24,918 bases of DNA from a virus, in IMG/VR virus record IMGVR_UViG_3300008267_000547, positions 1 to 24,918 of that record, one strand, 5' to 3'. The notes beneath the pieces are model-generated. The model made no database searches. It saw nothing but the letters and a program-made list of their open reading frames with translations, and was not told where the DNA came from. This document shows, piece after piece, positions 2,484 through 7,664 of the stretch. Both the position numbers and the translations under genes were made by a program. The stretch's first letter is position 1. Every line of letters begins with the position of its first letter.

Positions 2484-2714
2484 TTATTTACGCAAACTGC
2501 TATAAAACGCCACGTGCTGGGCTTTAAACTTTTGCATAGCCTCGTATTCGCTCCGTGCTGTGCTGATAGCTGGTGTGTATTGATTGGCTAACTGGTGTGT
2601 ATTGCCGTGTTGACGTGGACTGCAACCACCTAAAACAAAGCCTATAAAAATTAACATGGCACAAAAGGCTAATTTATTGAAAAACGCATCACCTGATAAT
2701 AAAAATTTATACAT
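2484..2714 (-). CDS. Small lipoprotein, unknown role
   Basis: A 76-residue protein starting at the ATG whose first base is 2714. An AAGGGG Shine-Dalgarno lies 6 bases upstream, which argues against the longer reading from 2753. The N-terminus has Lys3 and Lys14, a hydrophobic stretch (about 15-28) and a lipobox LGGC with the lipidated Cys at 31. The Ser after the Cys predicts outer-membrane sorting under the usual Lol rule. The mature part is only 46 residues, polar and without a recognised domain. It is read opposite to all neighbouring phage operons, with its own strong promoter and hairpins on both sides, like a phage moron gene. Small phage lipoproteins of this size can block receptors (superinfection exclusion, as T5 Llp does), but that role is inference. 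An Rz1-type spanin is less likely because no Rz partner is present here. Confidence 0.75.
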   Translation of the reverse strand: MYKFLLSGDAFFNKLAFCAMLIFIGFVLGGCSPRQHGNTHQLANQYTPAISTARSEYEAMQKFKAQHVAFYSSLRK

Positions 2715-2735
2715 AAATAACCCCTTACATTTACT

Positions 2736-2764
2736 ATAATACAAATATAACATGGAATTGTTAA
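2736..2764 (-). promoter_or_regulatory. Sigma-70-type promoter for the lipoprotein gene
   Basis: On the minus strand a -35 box TTAACA (2759-2764) and a -10 box TATTAT (2736-2741) are separated by exactly 17 bases; each box has one mismatch to consensus. The expected start of transcription is about 15 bases before the Shine-Dalgarno of the lipoprotein gene. It lies after the terminator of the HTH gene, so the lipoprotein is transcribed on its own and could be expressed from a dormant prophage. Confidence 0.7.
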
Positions 2765-2775
2765 AATACGGTTAA

Positions 2776-2800
2776 GGGCAGGGACAATTTGTCCCCACCC
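2776..2800 (-). terminator. Terminator of the minus-strand 193-aa/HTH operon
   Basis: GGGACA (2781-2786) and TGTCCC (2790-2795) pair around a 3-base loop, and outer GGG/CCC arms (2776-2778, 2798-2800) extend the stem past a small internal loop. It begins six bases after the HTH gene stop. On the minus strand it is followed by TTAACCGTATTTT, a weak T-rich tail. It separates the HTH operon from the lipoprotein promoter. Confidence 0.6.
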
Positions 2801-2806
2801 TCAAGA

Positions 2807-2998
2807 TTATTCCTGCATCCCCTGCATTAATTTTTCATAATAATCATTTAAAACAATAACATTGCTATTGCTTTTCATCGGTGCTTTACCATTTAACCAA
2901 TTACACAATGTCTTTTGATTGATGCCAGTATCGCAAGCAATGCGATACCGTGTTATACCTAGCGATTCTAGGGTTTGGATTTGTGATTGGGGGGTCAT
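2807..2998 (-). CDS. Small helix-turn-helix regulator, Aca-like by context
   Basis: A 63-residue protein made almost entirely of one DNA-binding domain. GITRYRIACDTGINQKTLCNWLNG reads as the two helices and turn of an XRE/Cro-type HTH: ITRYRIACDTGI is the supporting helix and turn, and NQKTLCNWLNG is the recognition helix. Its ATG overlaps the TGA of the upstream 193-aa gene by four bases (2995-2998), so the two are translationally coupled. No strong Shine-Dalgarno stands directly before it. The operon promoter contains a perfect inverted repeat between its boxes, where a dimer of such a protein would act as an autorepressor. Size, position after an unknown gene and operator layout match anti-CRISPR-associated (Aca) proteins. 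A plain Cro-like regulator is the alternative. HTH assignment is firm; the Aca role is inference. Confidence 0.8.
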   Translation of the reverse strand: MTPQSQIQTLESLGITRYRIACDTGINQKTLCNWLNGKAPMKSNSNVIVLNDYYEKLMQGMQE

Positions 2999-3576
2999 GC
3001 TTTTACCAAATTTACAGATTCTCCTTCAATTGCTATTGTGCCGTCTAAGTTGACTTGCATATCTTTGAATGTATATCCATCTGGGGCATTGTAAGCACCA
3101 CATAAAATCTCATCATGGGTGTAATCATCAAATGATGCGTTTATTGCGTCTTGCTCGCTTGTAAAAGCTACACAATAATCACCGTGCATAATATCATGTG
3201 ATTTGTATGCGTTTATGTATAATTTAGTTGTTGTGTCGCTTGCAGGCTTTAAATCAGTTGTATCATTTTTAGCCGTGTCACGGTGTGGATTGTAACCCTC
3301 TCCACCCTCGTTATGTAGGTTATCATAGTTAATCTCTGCTTGTGATTTACTTGCAAAAACTCCCTTGTCATTTAAATCTTTTAAAATCTCCAAAGATGCC
3401 TCAAACGCAGGTGATAACGTGCCTTTACCTTTTTCAAAATTAATTTTTGTGCCGTCAGTCCATATTTTATAATTACGGTCACCAGCAAAACTTGCGTCTT
3501 TGCCTATTAAATTGATATATGTGCGTCCGTAAGCTTGGTTTGTGCTTGCTACTACATGGCAATTATTGATATTCAT
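2995..3576 (-). CDS. Unrecognised 193-aa protein, first gene of a self-regulated operon
   Basis: I do not recognise this protein. It starts at an ATG with AAGGAG eight bases upstream, 46 bases downstream of a near-consensus promoter -10 box. It is hydrophilic, has no signal peptide or membrane segment, and is probably cytoplasmic. An N-terminal part (1-75) and a C-terminal part (115-193) are joined by a polar Asp/Thr/Asn-rich linker (about 88-117). Both parts carry a YIN tripeptide followed nine residues later by Gly-Asp (YIN 20-22, GD 32-33; YIN 120-122, GD 132-133). The offset is exactly 100 residues, hinting at an ancient internal duplication, though other similarity is weak. It is followed with a 4-base overlap by an HTH regulator. 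The operon layout suggests an anti-CRISPR or other anti-defence protein, made in a burst after infection and then repressed. That function is inferred from context only. Confidence 0.8.
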   Translation of the reverse strand: MNINNCHVVASTNQAYGRTYINLIGKDASFAGDRNYKIWTDGTKINFEKGKGTLSPAFEASLEILKDLNDKGVFASKSQAEINYDNLHNEGGEGYNPHRDTAKNDTTDLKPASDTTTKLYINAYKSHDIMHGDYCVAFTSEQDAINASFDDYTHDEILCGAYNAPDGYTFKDMQVNLDGTIAIEGESVNLVKA

Positions 3577-3621
3577 TGTCGTTCTCCTTAATCGTCCGCT
3601 TGATTGCGTCCTTGTAAAATC

Positions 3622-3650
3622 ATTATACTGTAACTTTACAGTAAAGTCAA
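3622..3650 (-). promoter_or_regulatory. Strong sigma-70 promoter of the 193-aa/HTH operon
   Basis: On the minus strand the -35 box is TTGACT (3645-3650, one mismatch), the -10 box is a perfect TATAAT (3622-3627) and the spacer is exactly 17 bases. Transcription would begin near 3614-3616, about 40 bases before the ATG at 3576. This is the best promoter in the window. Confidence 0.85.
3627..3642. promoter_or_regulatory. Operator: perfect inverted repeat inside the promoter spacer
   Basis: ACTGTAACTTTACAGT is a perfect inverted repeat: 7-base arms ACTGTAA/TTACAGT around a 2-base centre. It fills nearly the whole spacer of the minus-strand promoter and touches its -10 box, so a bound dimer would block RNA polymerase. 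The natural candidate to bind it is the HTH protein of the same operon. I did not see this palindrome elsewhere in the window. Confidence 0.8.
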
Positions 3651-3702
3651 CACCTTTTTTTATTTGTTTGCATTTTTTTTCATTGTGGTGTATTTTTTAT
3701 TT

Positions 3703-4155
3703 ATGACAGTGAAAAAACTTACAGATAAACAACAATTATTTTGCAAAGAATACCTTATTGATTTAAACGGTACACAAGCGGCGATTCGTGCTGGGTATAG
3801 TGAAAATACAGCGCAGGAAATATCCTCTGAAAACTTATCAAAACCTCTTATACAAGAATATCTAACAGAACTTAAAGCTGAACGTGAACAGAAACTCGAA
3901 ATAAACGCTCAATGGGTACTTAATCAAGCGGTTAAAGTGCATAATATGACTTTACAAGATAAAGACCACACAAACGCCTTAAAAGCCCTTGATTTAATAG
4001 GTAAACACGTCAATATTGGAGCGTTTAATACAAAAATGGATATAAATCATAGTCATGTCCATAGTTTTATAACGGTTGCGGATAAAAATATCCTCGAAAT
4101 GGGTTTAGGACACCCTGTGATTATTGATAACGAGGCAAGTAATGCAAGCGGTTAA
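3703..4155 (+). CDS. Terminase small subunit
   Basis: A 150-residue protein of the Terminase_2 (P27/SPP1 G1P-like) type: LTDKQQLFCKEYLIDLNGTQ followed by AAIRAGYSENTA and a conserved KPLIQEYL stretch within the first 55 residues form the DNA-binding HTH that recognises the packaging site. The rest is helical and likely drives oligomerisation and contact with the large subunit. I chose the ATG at 3703. A longer frame back to a TTG at 3664 adds a Phe-rich extension translated from a T-run and is unlikely. No strong Shine-Dalgarno is visible before 3703 and no strong plus-strand promoter is obvious in the gap. The 3' end overlaps the large terminase start by 14 bases, the normal order of packaging genes. 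Confidence 0.92.
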   Translation: MTVKKLTDKQQLFCKEYLIDLNGTQAAIRAGYSENTAQEISSENLSKPLIQEYLTELKAEREQKLEINAQWVLNQAVKVHNMTLQDKDHTNALKALDLIGKHVNIGAFNTKMDINHSHVHSFITVADKNILEMGLGHPVIIDNEASNASG

Positions 4156-5602
4156 ACTTGATAACCCTCATGCGGTATTACACTACCTCCTAGGCAATAA
4201 CCTTGCTTCTTTTGTCCATAAAGCATTCAATCATTTATCCCCGAATCAAGAATATCTCCATAATTGGCACATAGACGCAATATGTGATTATCTCAATGCG
4301 GTTGAGAGTGGTGAGATACAAAGGCTTATCATCAATATGCCTCCACGATTTATGAAGTCTATATGCGTATCGCAGGCTTGGACAGCGTATTTATTAGGAC
4401 GCAATCCGAGTACTCAAATCATCGTGGCGTCTTACTCTAGTAACCTATCAAGCCAGTTATCAGTCGCTACAAGGGAGTTGATTCGCTCTGATTGGTACAA
4501 GCGGACATTTCCGCAGTTAAAACTTGCAGACGATTTAAACCGCCAAGAATGGTTTAAAACGACACAAAACGGACATAGATATGCGACTTCTGTCGGTGGT
4601 ACGATAACAGGCTTTGGTGGTGATTATCTTATTCTCGATGACCCTGTTAATCCTGCCGACGCAATGAGTGATACAATGCGAGAGAGTGCTAACAGGTGGA
4701 TTGGTTCGTCATTTCTTAACCGTGCAAACAATCCTAAAACCGCAAAAATCGTGTGTGTGATGCAACGATTACATGACAATGATGTATCTGGTTATCTTGA
4801 GAATTTAGGGGGCTTTGACGTGCTTAAATTGCCAGTGCAGTTTGAGCAAAAGACGTTTATCGAGACCCCTAAAAAACAGTATGAACTTGATAAGGGCGAG
4901 TTTTTACATGGCGAACGCTTAGGACAAAAAGAAGTTGATGCCTTATTAACTGGTATGGGTAGTTATTCATTCGCAGGGCAGTATATGCAGAATCCTGCCC
5001 CTGCCGAGGGTGGTATTGTTAAAAAAGCATGGATAAAACCTATCATTACTAAACCATTGTCATATGATGCAATTTATCACAGTTGGGACACAGCAAGCAA
5101 AGCAAATGCAGGCAGTGATTATTCTGCTTTAACTGTTTGGGGCGTACATAAAAACCATTTTTATTTGTTGTTATCGTTTAAAAAACAGATGGAATATCCT
5201 GAATTAAGAGATACTGTTGTTAAATATGCTAATATCTATAAGCCTGATACAATCCTATTAGAGGATAAGGCAAGCGGTATCGCACTTGCACAGGACTTGA
5301 TACGCAATACGGCTTTACCAATTATCACAATAACACCGATAAAAGATAAGGTTACACGGTTATCGAACGTAACGCAATTATTTGAGGGTGGTCGTGTGTT
5401 AATTGATGCTGAGAGTGATTGGTCTGATGATTATGTGTATCAGTTGACCACTTTTCCCAACGCTGTTAATGATGATTTAGTCGATAGTACGTCACAATTT
5501 TTAAACTATGTTAAATTTAAAAGTCATGATAAAGATGACGAATATTTTTATCAAAATGATTATGACAGTTACCAAGGGGACAATGTAAATGTTGGATATT
5601 AA
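4142..5602 (+). CDS. Terminase large subunit (packaging ATPase-nuclease)
   Basis: A 486-residue terminase. The ATPase half shows a Walker A-like NMPPRFMKS (65-73), IIVASYS (94-99), Walker B YLILDDP (162-168) and a coupling segment CVMQRLHDNDVSG (205-217). The nuclease half shows HSWDTA with Asp316 followed by GSDYSALTVWG, LLEDKASG with Glu374, and a C-terminal NDDLVDS (443-449), giving the acidic RNase H-fold metal site. It pumps DNA into proheads through the portal and cuts concatemers. Start: ATG at 4142 with GAGG six bases upstream, preferred over an in-frame TTG at 4124. The Walker A has Phe-Met where related enzymes often have His-Gly; similar variants occur in this family, so it is not evidence of inactivity. 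It overlaps the portal gene by 14 bases. Confidence 0.96.
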   Translation: MQAVKLDNPHAVLHYLLGNNLASFVHKAFNHLSPNQEYLHNWHIDAICDYLNAVESGEIQRLIINMPPRFMKSICVSQAWTAYLLGRNPSTQIIVASYSSNLSSQLSVATRELIRSDWYKRTFPQLKLADDLNRQEWFKTTQNGHRYATSVGGTITGFGGDYLILDDPVNPADAMSDTMRESANRWIGSSFLNRANNPKTAKIVCVMQRLHDNDVSGYLENLGGFDVLKLPVQFEQKTFIETPKKQYELDKGEFLHGERLGQKEVDALLTGMGSYSFAGQYMQNPAPAEGGIVKKAWIKPIITKPLSYDAIYHSWDTASKANAGSDYSALTVWGVHKNHFYLLLSFKKQMEYPELRDTVVKYANIYKPDTILLEDKASGIALAQDLIRNTALPIITITPIKDKVTRLSNVTQLFEGGRVLIDAESDWSDDYVYQLTTFPNAVNDDLVDSTSQFLNYVKFKSHDKDDEYFYQNDYDSYQGDNVNVGY

Positions 5603-7664
5603 AAATAAATTAAAACCTGCCGATATTGATAAAACAGATAACCTTGTTGAGATATTAGATTCCTTTGATGTCAAAGCGATTGCAACGCAAATTGTCGAGT
5701 TTTACGATAGAGATTTAAACGATTGTCAACCGCATCATGACAAGATGAAGCGTTATCTTGGCGTATGTGACAATGAAGAAGAATATTTGCGTACCGCTCG
5801 GGTAAATGGTGGTTCTCGTTTGCATTATATGTTGTTAACCGATGCAAGCAATGAGTTTTTAACTACATTTATCAATGAGTTTCCGCTTGATAAGCCTGTT
5901 AAAGCAAAAAATGCAAAGGACGTGCCGAGTCAAGAGGATACCGCTGTTACACTTGCAATGACTGGGCAAATACCAGAGGGGCAGGACGCTAAGCCTATTG
6001 TTGATGGTGCGATTAAGCAAGCACGCATTTTAAATCATAAAGCATTAATGGATTCAGAGGACGCTGTTAAAATACTCAATTATCAATTTACAGAGGATAT
6101 GCCTGATTGGGTTGAAGAAACGCAAGAATTAGCAAAGCTATTGTGCGTTCAAGGGACTGTTTTACGTAAATACACATATTGTCCAGTTGAGCAACGCCCT
6201 ATTCATAAAATAGTCAAAGCAACTGATTTTGTGGTTAATAAAGAAGCAAAGACGATTGACGGTGCTAAGCGGTTATCCGAATGTAGTGCATACCGCAAAG
6301 AGGATATTATACCGCTATATGAATCAATGTATTTCAAAGAGCCTGAGACTGACGACGAACAAGAAGACGATACAGATTTTGATATTATTGAAATGAGTTT
6401 ACGACTTGATTTAGACGGCGACGATTATCCTGAGCCTTATGTCGCATGGGTTTTAAAAGATAAAGCTGAATTGTTAAGATTAGAAAAAAACTTTACAAAA
6501 GTGATTCGTTCTGAAAAAAATGATGACAAATCTAAGGCTATTGTTGTCAAGGCAAAGCCTCGGTATTGTAAATATTCATTCTTGCCAAGTAGTTGCTTTT
6601 GGGGCAAAGGCTTTGGTTCAATTTTAGAAATGTCTCAGAATGCTTTATCATCAATTCTTAATTTAACCATTGATGCAGGGGCAAAGTCCGCTTTGGGTGG
6701 CGGTGTATTTAGTGCTGATATAAATACCAAAGACCGTGTATTTAATTTTAGTGCGGGGGAATGGAAAGGTATTAGAGCAACAGGACAATCAATCCGTGAT
6801 TCATTTATGCCTATGCCTAATCCTGAACCTAGTCAAACACTTATGGGTATGATGCAATTACTTGATAGTAAATCATCATCATTGGCAAATCTTAATCAAA
6901 TGAACAGTGAAAACTTTACATCAAACACCGCGCCAACGACGGCAATGATTATGGCAGAGGAATCGACTAAGAAATTAAGGGCGGTATTAAAGCGCTTTTA
7001 TGTCGAGTTTAAAAAAGAGATACAATCACTTGTCGAAGCAAACAAAGAATATTTTAATACAGCAAGATACGCAGAATTAACAGGAATTGAGGTTGATAGT
7101 TCTGTATTTGCAAACAAAGAAATTGTATTTTTGCCAAATAAAGATATTGACGCAATCGGTAACGCTAGACAGATGGCACAAGTGCAATTTTTTGAAAGTA
7201 AAACACAAGACCCATTCTATGACGGCAAACGGACAAGAAAAGAAGTATTGCGATTAATGGGCATTGATAACCCTGATTATTATTTAACTGACCCACCAGA
7301 AGCACCGCAAGCACAGCCTGACCCGTTAATGATGGGGCAGTTAGAACTTGGCAAGGCACAGTTAGAATTACAAAAACAAATAAGCGATGCTAAAGATAAA
7401 ATTGATACGCTTAAAGTGTTGTTAGACAATGAAATTAAACAAGACAAGTTAGAAATTGACCGCATTAAAGCAATATCTGAAATCGAAGATGCTAATTTAG
7501 ATAGACAATTACAAGAGATAAACCTACGCAATACACCAGATATGGGAGCAGTAAATGGACAACAGGACATTAACAATCAACAACCTAACGGTAACGGAGC
7601 AGTCCCTGATGGGGTTGTTACAAACCAACGAGGGAATGTTCCTACAGGAATACCTACGGCTTAA
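5589..7664 (+). CDS. Portal protein
   Basis: A 691-residue protein directly after the large terminase with the size and composition of P22-type portals. It has an N-terminal head-like domain, a central clip/stem region around residues 330-480 (including FLPSSCFWGKGFGSIL and LNQMNSENFTSNTAPT), and a long helical C-terminal coiled coil at about 585-650 rich in Gln, Leu, Lys and Asp, corresponding to the barrel of P22-like portals. It ends in an Asn/Gln/Pro-rich tail. As a dodecamer it forms the DNA entry and exit channel and docks terminase, then the tail adaptor. Start ATG at 5589 has AAGGGG about nine bases upstream. The tail is overlapped by 110 bases by the next gene in another frame. Confidence 0.9.
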   Translation: MLDIKNKLKPADIDKTDNLVEILDSFDVKAIATQIVEFYDRDLNDCQPHHDKMKRYLGVCDNEEEYLRTARVNGGSRLHYMLLTDASNEFLTTFINEFPLDKPVKAKNAKDVPSQEDTAVTLAMTGQIPEGQDAKPIVDGAIKQARILNHKALMDSEDAVKILNYQFTEDMPDWVEETQELAKLLCVQGTVLRKYTYCPVEQRPIHKIVKATDFVVNKEAKTIDGAKRLSECSAYRKEDIIPLYESMYFKEPETDDEQEDDTDFDIIEMSLRLDLDGDDYPEPYVAWVLKDKAELLRLEKNFTKVIRSEKNDDKSKAIVVKAKPRYCKYSFLPSSCFWGKGFGSILEMSQNALSSILNLTIDAGAKSALGGGVFSADINTKDRVFNFSAGEWKGIRATGQSIRDSFMPMPNPEPSQTLMGMMQLLDSKSSSLANLNQMNSENFTSNTAPTTAMIMAEESTKKLRAVLKRFYVEFKKEIQSLVEANKEYFNTARYAELTGIEVDSSVFANKEIVFLPNKDIDAIGNARQMAQVQFFESKTQDPFYDGKRTRKEVLRLMGIDNPDYYLTDPPEAPQAQPDPLMMGQLELGKAQLELQKQISDAKDKIDTLKVLLDNEIKQDKLEIDRIKAISEIEDANLDRQLQEINLRNTPDMGAVNGQQDINNQQPNGNGAVPDGVVTNQRGNVPTGIPTA

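Follow-up and report, generated by a model that had tools for sequence, protein, structure and literature searches.

An acr-aca-like operon with a putative autorepressor and exchanged cargo genes beside the terminase genes of a tailed phage

The window, a stretch of 24,918 nucleotides from an IMG/VR virus record (IMGVR_UViG_3300008267_000547), belongs to a tailed phage with P22-like head genes and shows, beside the terminase and portal genes, a small minus-strand unit with its own promoter and terminator. The features of this region are:

5589 to 7664: portal gene
3703 to 5602: terminase genes
3645 to 3650, minus strand: -35 box, TTGACT
3627 to 3642, minus strand: proposed operator, a perfect 7-2-7 dyad between the -35 and -10 boxes, with compensatory changes in the related phages L003 and L004
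3622 to 3627, minus strand: -10 box, TATAAT
3594 to 3610, minus strand: conserved 5' leader element, GACGCAATCAAGCGGAC, kept in four phage types
2995 to 3576, minus strand: cargo gene, an ORF encoding an acidic protein of 193 aa (pI 4.8)
3352 to 3555, minus strand: N-terminal domain of the 193-aa protein (residues about 8-75, RxYINLxxK...GDRNY), with homologues in the prophage-type sequence L064 and in Mannheimia phages
2807 to 2998, minus strand: HTH gene, an ORF encoding a Cro/C1-type protein of 63 aa, proposed as an Aca-like autorepressor, with matches to phrog_6831 and phrog_4779 and homologues in L003, L004-L006 and L008
2926 to 2950, minus strand: conserved 10-bp RNA hairpin, CGGUAUCGCA-loop-UGCGAUACUG, within the HTH coding sequence and present in all four homologues
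2772 to 2804, minus strand: the operon's intrinsic terminator, with a stem of 15 pairs and a T-rich tail after it

The original prediction had described a minus-strand operon of two genes, and this arrangement is present in full: the ORFs 3576-2995 and 2998-2807, both on the minus strand, overlap by the four bases (ATGA) that the stop of the cargo gene shares with the start of the HTH gene, and the terminator follows. The cargo gene shows a strong Shine-Dalgarno sequence, AAGGAG, at 3584-3589. The TTGACT-17-TATAAT promoter holds as well, with 11 of 12 consensus matches and no better one in the region; as a class, promoter-like sites are not enriched (six found, 7.6 expected from shuffles). The predicted inverted repeat between the -35 and -10 boxes, ACTGTAA-CT-TTACAGT, is perfect, reaches into the -10 box by one base and extends even to an 8-2-8 form at 3626-3643; no second copy is found in the window when up to two mismatches are allowed. 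An Rfam search of the window found nothing. Upstream of the -35 box (3650-3720) lies an A-rich tract with one or two copies of ATGCAAA, likewise found in L003 and L004, which might serve as an UP element or belong to the divergent terminase promoter. A lipoprotein-like ORF of 89 aa with an LGGC lipobox lies downstream of the operon (2484-2753, minus strand) and has its own weak promoter; a homologue is found at the same position in L003 (8354-8608).

The 63-aa protein is a Cro/C1-type HTH protein whose best family matches, phrog_6831 (E 4.6e-5) and phrog_4779 (E 8.5e-5), have models of 68 and 98 positions that cover nearly its whole length; these matches are weak (E 1e-5 to 1e-4), and both families are defined only as regulators. 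An NCBIfam match to AimR (E 0.0014) was discarded as HTH resemblance only, far below the family cut-off. Scans of IMG/VR recovered HTH homologues in L003 (75% identity), L004-L006 (60%) and L008 (48%), and L002 is an identical copy of the window locus in another record. L004-L006 were counted as one type because their operons look alike. The HTH-bearing units of L003, L004-L006 and L008 are all divergent from terminase genes, and each homologous unit contains a TTGAC-17-TATAA promoter with the element ACGCAATYAAGCGRA 10-12 bases further on. As in acr-aca operons, the HTH gene and its cargo share one transcription unit in the window, L003, L004 and L008; the ATGA coupling places the HTH gene second in the window, L003 and L008, and first in L004, where the order is reversed. 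The transcript leader ACGCAATYAAGCG is nearly invariant across the window operon and three further phage types: its element at 3594-3610 is the same in the window and L003, with one change in L004/L005 and three in L008. This element has no known counterpart and is conserved more strongly than the operator, while operator and cargo change. A collection-wide scan for the promoter-leader pattern recovers these loci and one unrelated phage group (L043-L045, L047 and L048), whose matches come without -35 box, dyad or HTH gene and were rejected as chance. A scan of genome contigs gave weak HTH matches only, none of them linked to this system. In L008, a tRNA-Gln (TTG) gene is found at 5730-5804, near where the HTH operon ends.

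In these phages the frequency of perfect 7-2-7 dyads is about 2.6e-4 per position (17 in 66,081), so that one at a fixed position of the spacer is unlikely by chance. At the sequence level, the decisive argument that the dyad would be more than a chance repeat comes from two homologous operons, in which it lies at the same offset, altered in sequence and still perfect: the arms are ACTGTAA in the window, ACTCTTA in L003 and AGTATAA in L004. Among these three operators, both bases differ in three of the seven pairs and every pair stays intact; pairing is 100%, against 19-48% in slid controls. The covariation is good and not overwhelming, since 11 of 500 shuffles score as well and there are only three distinct operators. 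The putative recognition helix also varies (INQKTLCNW in the window, ISQDQLRRW in L003 and IPKMQLCNW in L004), as expected if the HTH protein and its DNA site change together. In L008, the most distant homologue, a perfect 7-2-7 dyad is absent at that position, and the best candidate pairs six of seven positions and overlaps the -35 box; the inverted repeat in the core promoter that marks acr-aca operons is thus found in three of the operons and takes another form in L008. The dyad kept perfect through compensatory changes, together with the changing recognition helix, supports an autorepressor with its own operator, and the tiny HTH protein probably represses the strong promoter from which it is expressed. 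A lysogeny-type switch, in which the HTH protein would act as a Cro-like regulator of late or packaging genes, would account for its Cro/C1-like type, and the divergent gene encodes a terminase small subunit (Terminase_2), so that a repressor could influence that promoter region too. However, the window has a single copy of the dyad, in the promoter of the operon itself, a divergent CI partner is absent and the turnover of cargo genes does not fit, which makes such a switch extremely improbable. The Cro/CI pair that the original prediction had named as evidence against itself is not what lies here, since the operon diverges from the gene for the terminase small subunit.

The cargo genes differ from one phage type to the next. 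The window encodes one protein of 193 aa, L003 two proteins (68 and 86 aa), L004 one of 123 aa, located after the HTH gene, and L008 three (150, 148 and 80 aa). The cargo sets of the window, L003/L004 and L008 have no full-length similarity, and only the 68-aa protein of L003 and the 123-aa protein of L004 match each other weakly (E 0.003). The window and L003 are colinear, with 77-86% DNA identity across the head and tail genes; between them the cargo is replaced, and so is the terminase except for its 5' end. The same HTH family therefore adjoins different cargo in different phages, which is also a feature of acr-aca operons. The first gene had been called unrecognised, and it stays so: the 193-aa protein has no match in Pfam, NCBIfam or PADLOC, nor among plasmids or annotated phages at E 1, and its relatives are only the identical copy in L002 and the homologues of its N-terminal domain. 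A structural or replication family, which would have spoken against the prediction, was sought for this protein and not found. For the cargo genes as a whole, searches of Pfam, PHROGs and NCBIfam for all of them and of the PDB for four gave no convincing or named-family match, and none matched a known anti-CRISPR or anti-defence protein in libraries that do not contain every Acr. The AlphaFold model of the 193-aa protein alone is unusable (pLDDT 33). In L003-type and L005-type phages (L058 4345-4833 and L060 198-638), a short ORF resembles, by eye only, a DUF262/GmrS-type N-terminus.

The exchange of cargo also bears on a type II toxin-antitoxin module, in which, as in HigBA, a toxin gene would come first and an HTH antitoxin gene second, the antitoxin repressing its own operon through the dyad. 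The gene order, with the would-be toxin first and the HTH gene overlapping it, a HigA match below threshold (TIGR02607, E 0.099) and the structural likeness of several Acas to the HigA and GraA antitoxins (PMC9410906) agree with it. But the same HTH family is found with unrelated cargo, which in one case follows the HTH gene, an arrangement incompatible with a specific antitoxin; in addition, the 63-aa HTH protein is too short for a separate toxin-neutralising domain, and the 193-aa protein has no toxin-family match in Pfam, NCBIfam or PADLOC. We consider such a module very unlikely.

The N-terminal domain of the 193-aa protein shows 42% identity with L064 and 35% with proteins of Mannheimia phages (phrog_16984), the matching stretch being residues about 14-70. 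Its AF2 model, built from five sequences, has a pLDDT of 64 and a beta-beta-beta-beta-alpha order, and no fold can be named for it because neither Foldseek (PDB and BFVD, E 0.001) nor VIA-align (Z >= 5) returned a match for the model. In L064 the domain stands alone, as a protein of 83 residues, and adjoins an integrase gene; the host of L064 is probably a member of the Pasteurellaceae, as judged from its similarity to Mannheimia prophages. In L064 and Mannheimia the next gene encodes a protein of 172-173 aa with an HTH-like C-terminus (in L064 a call from weak Pfam matches only), unrelated to the HTH protein of the window, so the domain precedes two different regulators. The pairs of Mannheimia and other Pasteurellaceae prophages (phrog_16984/phrog_12690) are like the window operon in having an RxYINL..GDRNY cargo upstream of an HTH-like gene in an accessory region, and they differ from it in the partner of phrog_12690 type and in the C-terminal halves of the cargo proteins, which are unrelated too. 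An AIPR_N match in the Mannheimia cargo (E 0.0034) was rejected, as it is below the cut-off and lies in the half absent from the window protein. The L064 region 3914-5180, adjoining the integrase gene, is a prophage unit of three genes, encoding the GDRNY-domain protein, the protein with the HTH-like C-terminus and a protein of 165 aa with an HTH-like N-terminus; it is a candidate for a separate anti-defence locus. HTH proteins related to the L064 partner are found in Edwardsiella phage EPP-1 (L068 1666-2372) and Acidovorax phage Aval (L069 1474-2189), in both cases behind a small uncharacterised gene in a terminal accessory region.

Among the known systems, the same layout is seen in acrIF8-aca2 of Pectobacterium phage ZF40, likewise a minus-strand pair with the small cargo gene first and the HTH gene second, set between the early and late genes of a plus-strand phage. 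In its proven promoter, too, the spacer ahead of TATAAT contains an inverted repeat, GTTCGC-GATT-GCGAAC, which differs in sequence from the window operator and which Aca2 binds (PMC8434428). AcrIF8 is a proven anti-CRISPR, whereas the 193-aa protein is a candidate anti-defence factor. Aca2 has 116 aa with its own dimerisation domain, in contrast to the 63 aa of the window HTH protein; hhalign of the two aligned only 7 columns (probability 0.5%), and the window protein has no match in Pfam to PF08965 (Aca2_YdiL, DUF1870/YdiL), so that membership of the Aca2 family was rejected on length, alignment and family match alike. Its size agrees with that of Acr-associated Acas, which average 60-65 aa (PMC9410906). 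All Aca families examined carry an inverted repeat in their core promoters, and repression was seen for every one tested (PMC9410906). Like the Aca1-Aca10 class, the window protein has a single domain of about 60-65 aa, is encoded by the downstream gene and comes with a core-promoter inverted repeat, but no known Acr adjoins it and the L004-type HTH gene precedes its cargo. The HTH profile found no Aca chain (Aca1, Aca10 or others) in the PDB at E 5, with a thin profile and in a class of short HTHs that diverge beyond the reach of this test; the comparison covered Aca2 and the solved Aca chains. Of the earlier proposal that the HTH protein is a new Aca, the layout and the covarying operator thus agree, and a sequence match to Aca2 or to the Aca structures of the PDB was not obtained.

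The layout shows all the acr-aca features that could be checked. Given the covarying operator, the ZF40-like layout, the exchanged cargo and an HTH sequence not detectably belonging to any Aca family tested, we read the window HTH protein as a new Aca-like regulator, set apart by sequence from Aca2, in an acr-aca-like operon. That the unit is an accessory (moron) operon under its own control, on the plan of acr-aca units, with a cargo most likely directed against host defence, seems to us reasonably probable. The near-consensus promoter would fire on host RNA polymerase and give the 193-aa cargo protein, behind which the 63-aa HTH protein would be translated by translational coupling; on accumulating, the HTH protein, presumably as a dimer, would bind the dyad between the -35 and -10 boxes and shut the promoter. 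Cargo would be made in a burst as infection starts, and the operon would then fall silent. Between related phages the cargo would be swapped, with the regulator, the position of the operator and the leader retained. The architecture, the operator symmetry with its compensatory changes and the exchange of cargo find support in the sequence comparisons; that the HTH protein binds and represses, that expression is early and that the cargo acts against defence is what we infer from them. The exchanged genes are good anti-defence candidates, since the same switch with different genes behind it is seen in known anti-CRISPR units; an anti-defence cargo is likely but unproven, and an anti-CRISPR is just one of the forms that it could take.

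Any self-limiting cargo would fit this layout too, toxin-antitoxin or superinfection-exclusion genes among them. A self-repressed accessory operon whose cargo serves superinfection exclusion, host takeover or lysogen fitness, the likeness to acr-aca being purely regulatory, would agree with the small ORFan cargo and the location next to the packaging genes, both of which fit morons generally, and with the lack of any anti-defence family match among the cargo genes. Only 15% of Aca-like homologues lie beside known Acrs, and Aca operons resemble toxin-antitoxin units (PMC9410906), both of which limit what architecture can prove. Rapid exchange of ORFans behind a constant autorepressor is nevertheless most familiar from acr loci, and nothing else separates the two readings; we regard a non-defence cargo as possible and rather less than probable. 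Of the original acr-aca-like reading, the regulatory half is thus upheld (an Aca-like HTH protein, a covarying operator, a constant regulator with exchanged cargo), and the anti-defence half is plausible by association only. The regulator family and its predicted operator could be used as bait for anti-defence genes by association. The four phage types together contribute seven cargo genes, all of them small and uncharacterised. The covarying operators offer a natural experiment on the joint change of recognition helix and DNA site, and the cargo domain recurs in prophages of cultured Pasteurellaceae, where its role can be tested.

The RNA hairpin inside the HTH gene occupies the same place in the window, L003, L004 and L008. 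Its inner 8-bp stem arises in about 3.3-3.6% of random synonymous recodings with phage codon usage, it retains CGG, the rarest arginine codon (11 of 191), and its fold z-scores range from -2.3 to -3.2. Coming from four related sequences, this evidence is suggestive only; the hairpin may possibly serve RNA-level control or be a recombination site. Aca2 is reported to bind RNA in addition to DNA. A new Aca family under control at two levels, with repression through the dyad and a post-transcriptional step at the CGG-bearing hairpin, and with the GDRNY domain as a new anti-defence domain shared with Pasteurellaceae prophages, would join these observations and is in our view unlikely.
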